Shown here piece after piece: positions 24,131 to 30,304 of a stretch of DNA of 64,000 bases (positions are counted from its first letter, which is position 1; every line of letters begins with the position of its first letter). The position numbers and the translations under genes were made by a program. The notes below the pieces were generated by a model. That model ran no database searches and was not told the origin of the DNA. It worked only from the letters and a program-made list of their open reading frames with translations. Source of the DNA: a candidate division FCPU426 bacterium. Lineage in GTDB: Bacteria > Oederibacteriota > Muellerivitia > Muellerivitales > DAHXKG01. The stretch spans positions 31,744-95,743 of the forward strand of contig DAHXKG010000009.1 of the NCBI GenBank assembly GCA_027366525.1, written 5' to 3'.

Positions 24131-25345
24131 TTATCTTTTTGATAGCGCTGAATGAAATACTTGCCCGAGCCGGCGAATTCCTTCAGTGATTTTGGCTTCA
24201 TCAACTGCACAAAAAGTTAATCGAAGTGTATTGAGCCCCTGCTGATCATGAATATAAAATGCGGATCCAACAACATAGGCCACTTTAGCAGCCAGCGCTT
24301 GCTGAAAGAGTTCAATTGTATTGAAGCCTTTCGGGAGGCCTGCCCAAATGAAAAAACCTCCTAAGGGCCGATTATACCAAATGTCTTTAGGGAAATAATT
24401 TTGAATTGCCGCAATCATAGCATCTCGACGTTTTTGATACGTTTGTATTAATGTTTGAATATGGGCAGGTAAATAACCCTGAGCGAAGAAGTTAGCGGCA
24501 ATCGCTTGTGATAGTACATCGGTACAAACATCGGTTGTTTCTTTAGCCATGGTCATACGAGCAATTAAAGTAGGATCAGCGCAGACCCATCCTAATCGCA
24601 TTCCTGGAGCGCCGATTTTGCTAAAACTTCCAAGATAGACAACTCGTCCATCCGTATCAAAAGATTTGATGCTTCGAATGGATTTGTTGGTGAAGTTCAG
24701 TTCCCCATAGGGATTATCTTCAATAATAAGGAAATCATGACGCCGAGCTACTTCTAATAATTTAATCCGATAATTTTCTGGCAGCGTTGAACCGCCCGGG
24801 TTTTGAAAAGTGGGAATGGTATAAAGTAATTTAGGTTTGTCCGTCGTAGGTGAAGTCAGTTGGGCATTTAGTTCGTCAGGCCGGATACCTGTTTCAGTAC
24901 AAGCAATGGGGAGGAGTTTTGCAAAAAAATTTTTTAGACAGAGTAATCCTCCTAAGTAAGACGGTTCTTCGACCATAACCGTGTCACCAGGATCCAGAAG
25001 TATAGTCGATGCTAAAAATAAACCTTGTTGACTTCCGGTGGTGATTAAAATATTTTCTAAAGTACAATTAATGCCCTGATTATTCAGGTATTGCGCAATT
25101 GCCTCTCGAAGCGGTTTCCAACCAATAGTTTCACCATACTGTAAAGCGAGAGGACCTTGATTCCGGATGACCTGCGATGCCAGATCAGCTAAAAGCTCTT
25201 TGGGAAAAAGTTGCGCATCCGGTGTACCGCCCGCAAATGAAATAATATCCGATTGTTGCACTAGTTTTAGGAGTGCTCGAATAATAGATGGTTTCATCTG
25301 ATTTGAAGTTTTTGAAAAGTAAGAAGAATAGTTCATGAATATCAT
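24131..25345 (-). CDS. PLP-dependent aminotransferase, class I (LysN/2-aminoadipate type)
   Basis: Fold-type I aminotransferase of 404 residues. Typical features are FAGGTPDAQLFP near the N-terminus, the TTGSQQGL motif, TIPTFQNPGG, EDNPYGEL, and the PLP lysine in LGSFSKIGAPGMRLGW. The pattern most resembles the 2-aminoadipate/aromatic aminotransferase (LysN, Aro8, kynurenine aminotransferase II) subgroup. The amino-acid substrate cannot be settled. It stands alone, convergent with the small lipoprotein gene and divergent from enolase. The ATG at 25345 has no clear ribosome-binding site; a second ATG is 9 nt in. Confidence 0.88.
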   Translation of the reverse strand: MIFMNYSSYFSKTSNQMKPSIIRALLKLVQQSDIISFAGGTPDAQLFPKELLADLASQVIRNQGPLALQYGETIGWKPLREAIAQYLNNQGINCTLENILITTGSQQGLFLASTILLDPGDTVMVEEPSYLGGLLCLKNFFAKLLPIACTETGIRPDELNAQLTSPTTDKPKLLYTIPTFQNPGGSTLPENYRIKLLEVARRHDFLIIEDNPYGELNFTNKSIRSIKSFDTDGRVVYLGSFSKIGAPGMRLGWVCADPTLIARMTMAKETTDVCTDVLSQAIAANFFAQGYLPAHIQTLIQTYQKRRDAMIAAIQNYFPKDIWYNRPLGGFFIWAGLPKGFNTIELFQQALAAKVAYVVGSAFYIHDQQGLNTLRLTFCAVDEAKITEGIRRLGQVFHSALSKR

Positions 25346-29425: not shown

Positions 29426-30304
29426 TTACGGTTTTAGATGGTCAAGTAATTCATCAGAAAATTGTCCACTGCAGATTTCTTCTACGGGCCCCCTCATTTT
29501 TATTTGAAAATCATTTGCAACTTGGAGAAAAAGATCTCCTCCGGGCATATGCACGGTCAGATCCGATTGGCATTTCTTGGTTTTAACGCATGCCGCAGCA
29601 ACGGCACAGGAGGATGATCCAGAAGCCATCGTATATCCTGCCCCCCGCTCCCATATTTCAATAGAAACTTCCCTTGGATTATTAACAGTGACGAGCTGAA
29701 CATTGCTTCGGTTAGGAAACTGGGGATGATTTTCAAGAAGGGGCCCAAGGTCATGAATGGACCAATTGGGAATTTGATCATGAAAGACGACACAATGGGG
29801 ATTTCCCATAGATACGCCAGTGATAGGAATGCGTTTTTTTTCTCCTGCAAGAGTAATTTCCAGTGGGAAATTAATGACTTCACCTGTGATCCCGTGGATG
29901 GGGATTTTTTCAGCGTCAAAGGTCGCTTGACCCATTTCAACGGTTACAGTAACGACATGCCCTAGAACGATATGTAAAAATGACTTAACCGTTCCACCTA
30001 GGGTTTCAATTTCAAATTTCATTTTTTCAGTATATCCATGTTCGTAAAGAAATTTGCTGAAAATACGTAATCCATTACCACTTTTTTCTGCTTCACTGCC
30101 ATCCGGGTTATAAATTTTCAATGCTGCTTCAGCGGAGGAAGCCGGTAATAAAGCTAATATTCCATCTGAGCCAATTCCAGTATGGCGGTTACAAATTTGT
30201 ATGATATTTTGGGGTGTTAAAGGGAAGGATAATTGGGCCAGATCCACAATTAAGTAATCATTACCTAACCCATGTGAGCGAATAAATTGGTTTTTTTTTA
30301 GCAT
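29426..30304 (-). CDS. dapF: DapF-family epimerase homologue lacking both catalytic cysteines
   Basis: Full-length (292 residues) member of the diaminopimelate epimerase family: HGLGNDYLIVD at 11-21, GIGSDGIL, NPDGSEAEKSGNGLR, SMGNPHCVVF, WERGAGYTMASGSSSC and the final MRGP. In DapF two cysteines act as acid and base. Aligned with E. coli, Cys73 is Ser75 here (KSGNG) and Cys217 is Ser228 (ASGSS); the conserved Glu208 is Tyr224. Both serine codons (AGT, TCT) are one base from TGT, and the frame is otherwise intact. It may still epimerise, may be a dehydratase or isomerase, or may act on another substrate. Upstream of it is a membrane protein gene; no dap gene is near. Confidence 0.8.
   Translation of the reverse strand: MLKKNQFIRSHGLGNDYLIVDLAQLSFPLTPQNIIQICNRHTGIGSDGILALLPASSAEAALKIYNPDGSEAEKSGNGLRIFSKFLYEHGYTEKMKFEIETLGGTVKSFLHIVLGHVVTVTVEMGQATFDAEKIPIHGITGEVINFPLEITLAGEKKRIPITGVSMGNPHCVVFHDQIPNWSIHDLGPLLENHPQFPNRSNVQLVTVNNPREVSIEIWERGAGYTMASGSSSCAVAAACVKTKKCQSDLTVHMPGGDLFLQVANDFQIKMRGPVEEICSGQFSDELLDHLKP

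Follow-up and report, generated by a model that had tools for sequence, protein, structure and literature searches.

A gene of the DapF family in the genome of a candidate division FCPU426 bacterium encodes a protein in which both catalytic cysteines are replaced by serine, and this protein is, judging from its sequence and the pathway around it, likely to be the only DAP epimerase of its host. As to the enzyme itself, we lean towards a cofactor-independent two-serine epimerase, working with or without the help of a lysine, on which many lineages, including Nitrospira, would depend entirely for their meso-DAP. Thiol/thiolate acid-base catalysis at a C-H bond of very low acidity is classically exemplified by DapF. 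If a large natural Ser/Ser clade performs this task too, as it seems to, the thiol pair would prove dispensable, and enzymologists would have natural enzymes for testing how this chemistry works. Cysteine-directed inhibitors of DapF would probably be ineffective on the bacteria of this clade. Annotation models call the Ser/Ser proteins DapF regardless of their catalytic residues, and the variant is therefore easily overlooked. In the open-access literature we found no described Ser/Ser DapF or Ser/Ser epimerase, though an earlier mention elsewhere is possible.

The gene and its active site

The window, i.e., the whole stretch of 64,000 nucleotides that was analysed, lies in G000:C33 of the host genome (2.02 Mb, 97.5% complete), and the gene occupies its positions 29426..30304 on the minus strand, starting with ATG and encoding 292 amino acids without an internal stop. 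The product matches the DapF model TIGR00652 over the whole length (residues 6-282; 240.9 bits, cut-off 114.65), has PF01678, in two halves, as its sole Pfam match, and is 34% identical to DapF of E. coli K-12 in a pairwise alignment (E 8e-51). Its predicted structural model (pLDDT 94.8) points to the DapF fold: the first 26 PDB matches of the model are DAP epimerases or O-ureidoserine racemase, and it resembles 4lb0 and 4k7g, of the proline racemase superfamily, much less closely than it does DapF. No Pfam family of the proline racemase superfamily matches the protein, and the models of the bifunctional DapF/glutamate racemase (NF038284, 67.8 bits, cut-off 350) and of the histidine racemase CntK (NF033599, 20.1 bits, cut-off 300) score it far below their cut-offs.

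In place of the two catalytic cysteines that distinguish DapF (Cys73 and Cys217 in E. coli), codon reading and the pairwise alignment place Ser75 (AGT, 30080..30082) and Ser228 (TCT, 29621..29623; these and all the codons below are on the minus strand). By sequence, the protein is a variant of DapF and would not be a canonical member by mechanism. The first-pass annotation had described this double replacement, the distance of a single base between each serine codon and TGT, and an otherwise sound gene, and our analysis agrees with it on all these points. It had also set Tyr224 against Glu208, which was a numbering slip: Tyr224 (29633..29635) aligns with Glu213, a position variable in the clade (Tyr, Glu, Trp, Phe), and Glu208 is kept as Glu219 within the WERGAG motif.

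The DAP-binding side chains are kept as well, namely Asn15 (E. coli Asn11, 30260..30262), Asn66 (Asn64, 30107..30109), Asn168 (Asn157, 29801..29803), Asn201 (Asn190, 29702..29704) and the pair Glu219-Arg220 (Glu208-Arg209, 29645..29650), which binds the distal end of DAP. All 89 rows of the clade alignment have them, apart from Asn15, which is counted in 88 because one row is truncated. The corresponding side-chain contacts of a DAP analogue in Anabaena DapF are Asn13, Asn66, Asn164, Asn197, Glu215 and Arg216, and a loop Glu pairs there with the substrate-contacting Arg (PMC12039745); Glu73 of the window protein, located at the position of this loop Glu, is conserved through the clade. Changes specific to the clade occur near the first (Lys74, Ser75, Ile81, Ser46, Pro67) and the second (Ser228, Ser231, Ile217, Gln203) catalytic positions.

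Canonical DapF proteins (E. coli, H. influenzae, Anabaena, A. thaliana) share with the window protein the fold, the length, the side-chain ligands of DAP and the pathway partners, but they are Cys/Cys and carry Met/Gln, Ala/Phe, Gly and Cys where the window protein has Lys74, Ser46, Ser231 and Ile81, respectively. Identical substitutions in this fold exist in the laboratory mutants C73S and C217S of H. influenzae DapF (PDB 2q9h, 2q9j), which were engineered singly, whereas the two serines of the window protein are natural and conserved. HisR, CntK, O-ureidoserine racemase and the chlamydial DapF (NF038284) also have the DapF fold but are racemases acting on other substrates, and they are annotated as DapF or close to it; however, HisR, CntK and the chlamydial enzyme use two cysteines, unlike the window protein. 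Natural serine at the first position is found in the Ser/Cys 4-hydroxyproline 2-epimerase and the Ser/Thr trans-3-hydroxyproline dehydratase of the proline racemase superfamily (PMC4113996); these have the same general fold but represent another family with other substrates, and their second position is Cys or Thr instead of Ser.

The neighbouring genes in the window (enolase, ilvD, peroxiredoxin and envelope-like genes, all named by eye) are uninformative on function, the gene standing alone there. A gene of a PLP aminotransferase, similar by eye to 2-aminoadipate aminotransferase, is located at 24131-25345 on the minus strand of the window.

Extent and history of the Ser/Ser clade

All 89 rows of the clade have serine at both positions; the other 23 rows of the alignment are Cys/Cys (22) or Cys/Ser (one). 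The pair is present in all seven relatives from the host's order that have a match (one of them, the L007 homologue of G027, is 62% identical to the query) and in three more FCPU426 genomes. Further homologues were found with an alignment-based query, while a single-protein query found none. All 80 loci fetched from the contig database, belonging to about 20 phyla, are Ser/Ser, the fetch patterns having not included the serines but having favoured this branch; about 30 Cys/Cys DapF sequences served as a control set. Among the hosts are Nitrospira, Dadabacteria, Rokubacteria, Methylomirabilota, Aquificota, Bacteroidota, Gemmatimonadota, Latescibacterota, Armatimonadota, Chloroflexota, Verrucomicrobiota, Cyanobacteria and Pseudomonas. 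Both serines recur in independently assembled genomes of many organisms, which excludes a sequencing or assembly error.

In three trees built from different samplings, one branch with support of 100/100 separates Ser/Ser proteins from all Cys/Cys ones, so that the natural subfamily with SGNG and ASGSSSC motifs, surmised in the first-pass annotation, does exist as one clade. Close pairs within it have dN/dS of 0.05-0.09, and at position 75 the tree shows three switches between the AGY and TCN codon families, serine being retained throughout. Decay of the gene is rejected on the grounds of these dN/dS values and of the clade-wide occurrence of the serine pair. The FCPU426 genes fall in three separate places within the clade, and the majority of this phylum has a Cys/Cys DapF, often encoded beside lysA; such scattered placement in a mostly Cys/Cys phylum makes horizontal transfer of the Ser/Ser genes within FCPU426 likely.

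Two loci deserve separate mention. In another FCPU426 genome, a canonical-branch DapF encoded beside lysA (L027, G016:C55:7398-8171) combines Cys at the first position with Ser (TCC) at the second. L031, which at first appeared to be Ser/Cys, is Cys/Cys, the pattern having matched falsely on another motif.

Supply of meso-DAP in the host and its relatives

The host possesses adjacent lysA, dapA and dapB genes (C22, L155) and an LL-DAP aminotransferase of the PRK06290 type (G000:C30:41278-42393; 671 bits, cut-off 585). Its MurE carries the DNPR motif, which we take to be the mark of a meso-DAP-adding MurE, and LysA acts on meso-DAP. As proposed in the first-pass annotation, the genome was searched both for LL-DAP aminotransferase, which proved to be present, and for DAP dehydrogenase, which was not found in the host and scores above the cut-off in only two of the 46 genomes examined; the latter enzyme is thus rejected as the host's source of meso-DAP. 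Having LysA and a meso-DAP-type MurE and lacking DAP dehydrogenase, the host therefore needs an LL-DAP epimerase. A canonical dapF, which the first-pass annotation had also suggested looking for, was not found: in the host genome, 97.5% complete, PF01678 detects no second DapF, and a further DapF is accordingly rejected as the epimerase. By homology, the Ser/Ser protein is the only LL-DAP epimerase candidate that the genome sequence offers. The single member of the Asp/Glu racemase family in the host is presumably MurI.

This pattern extends beyond the host. One PF01678 protein, with two half-domains, is encoded in the host and in each of the seven order relatives with a match; in G030 of the same order (94% complete) none was found, though lysA is present, which may be due to an assembly gap. 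In genomes of other phyla the Ser/Ser protein is the only member of the DapF family in 30 cases out of 35, the further copies in the other five being Cys/Cys. Among the genomes compared, 32 of 35 have LysA and 43 of 46 have MurE. In Bacteroidota, i.e., outside the host's phylum, linkage places the Ser/Ser gene inside the DAP pathway: dapL lies within about 250 bp of it (G050, G059, G065, L087) and lysA beside it (G059, L072), all these matches being above the cut-offs. Within the host's order, two types of LL-DAP aminotransferase occur: the PRK06290-type gene of the host is located away from lysA-dapA-dapB, while G024, G027, G028 and G029 have a TIGR03540-type gene near dapB.

Chemistry of the serines and divergent members

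The large size of this natural clade, its spread over many phyla and the fact that its member is usually the only copy in a host suggest that the two serines probably do the catalytic work. The most economical mechanism would be that of DapF, with hydroxyls replacing the thiols at the helix N-termini: Ser75 and Ser228 would form the acid/base pair interconverting LL-DAP and meso-DAP, and Lys74, standing in place of Met/Gln, may assist them. We infer these roles of the serines and, from the pathway context, the activity on LL-DAP. The weak point of such a mechanism would lie in the chemistry. The single mutants C67S and C209S of HisR, a racemase with the DapF fold, are strongly impaired, nearly dead (PMC11602996), and the preference for cysteine is attributed to a lower pKa and easier desolvation (PMC8142540). 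On the other hand, the Ser/Cys 4-hydroxyproline epimerase is active (PMC4113996), and serine can therefore serve on one face. Also counted against a two-serine DAP epimerase are a possible non-homologous epimerase, which sequence would not reveal, the completeness of the genome (97.5%), the dehydratase activity of the known Ser/Thr member of the related superfamily (PMC4113996), and the fact that the linkage evidence comes from other phyla.

It is conceivable, though rather unlikely, that the protein is a DAP epimerase in which proton transfer, on one face or both, falls to Lys74 or a bound water, the serines doing no more than positioning the substrate. Lys74 (30083..30085) is lysine in all 89 clade rows as against Met/Gln in the 22 Cys/Cys rows, and it sits in the loop curving around the substrate; as no basic residue lies within 4 A of the cysteines in Anabaena DapF (PMC12039745), a lysine there would be a real change. 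However, the lysine gives way to Gln, Met or Arg in three Ser/Ser proteins of greater divergence, which weakens any strict Ser-Lys pairing.

It is improbable that the protein acts on another substrate or catalyses another reaction (elimination, isomerisation), meso-DAP being supplied by a different enzyme. A Ser/Thr member of the proline racemase superfamily is indeed a dehydratase (PMC4113996), some genomes with a Cys/Cys DapF harbor Ser/Ser paralogues, and plasmid-borne members from Streptomyces and Agrobacterium have a changed Asn157 ligand and other gene contexts; but the DAP ligands are invariant in the core clade, whose members are mostly the sole DapF of their genomes and, in Bacteroidota, adjoin dapL and lysA. 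Among the three options left by the first-pass annotation, the evidence most favours the use of serines, the protein being the sole LL-DAP epimerase candidate in a genome requiring meso-DAP; deprotonation-only chemistry and another substrate fit the core clade poorly, given the kept DAP ligands and the dapL/lysA linkage. Finally, that the protein is catalytically dead, with a binding or structural role, or that its serines reflect decay, is very hard to accept, since, in spite of the loss of both thiols and the poor activity of laboratory Cys-to-Ser mutants, this is one old clade of about 20 phyla with low dN/dS, invariant active-site surroundings and serine kept across two codon families.

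Apart from the core clade, some Ser/Ser paralogues (Streptomyces, Agrobacterium, Pseudomonas) may plausibly act on other substrates, considering a co-resident Cys/Cys DapF, a missing DAP ligand or a different gene context. The Ser/Ser genes of the Streptomyces plasmid (L177:592-1536) and of the Agrobacterium vitis plasmid (L178:559-1455), both with the Asn157 ligand changed, are located between genes of a 2OG-Fe dioxygenase and a molybdopterin-dependent oxidoreductase, and their products are possibly racemases of specialised metabolites. In Pseudomonas nitroreducens TX1, which has a Cys/Cys DapF elsewhere (L164), the Ser/Ser paralogue (L165:2010-2867) is flanked by genes resembling, by eye, a Ser/Thr symporter and a urea transporter. 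One more Ser/Ser DapF, with the motifs EQSGNG and ASGSGAC, is encoded on an IMG/VR contig (L172:2923-3768) near a serine recombinase gene, the end of which overlaps, by eye, a sigma-G-like ORF on the opposite strand, as in a skin-like element.
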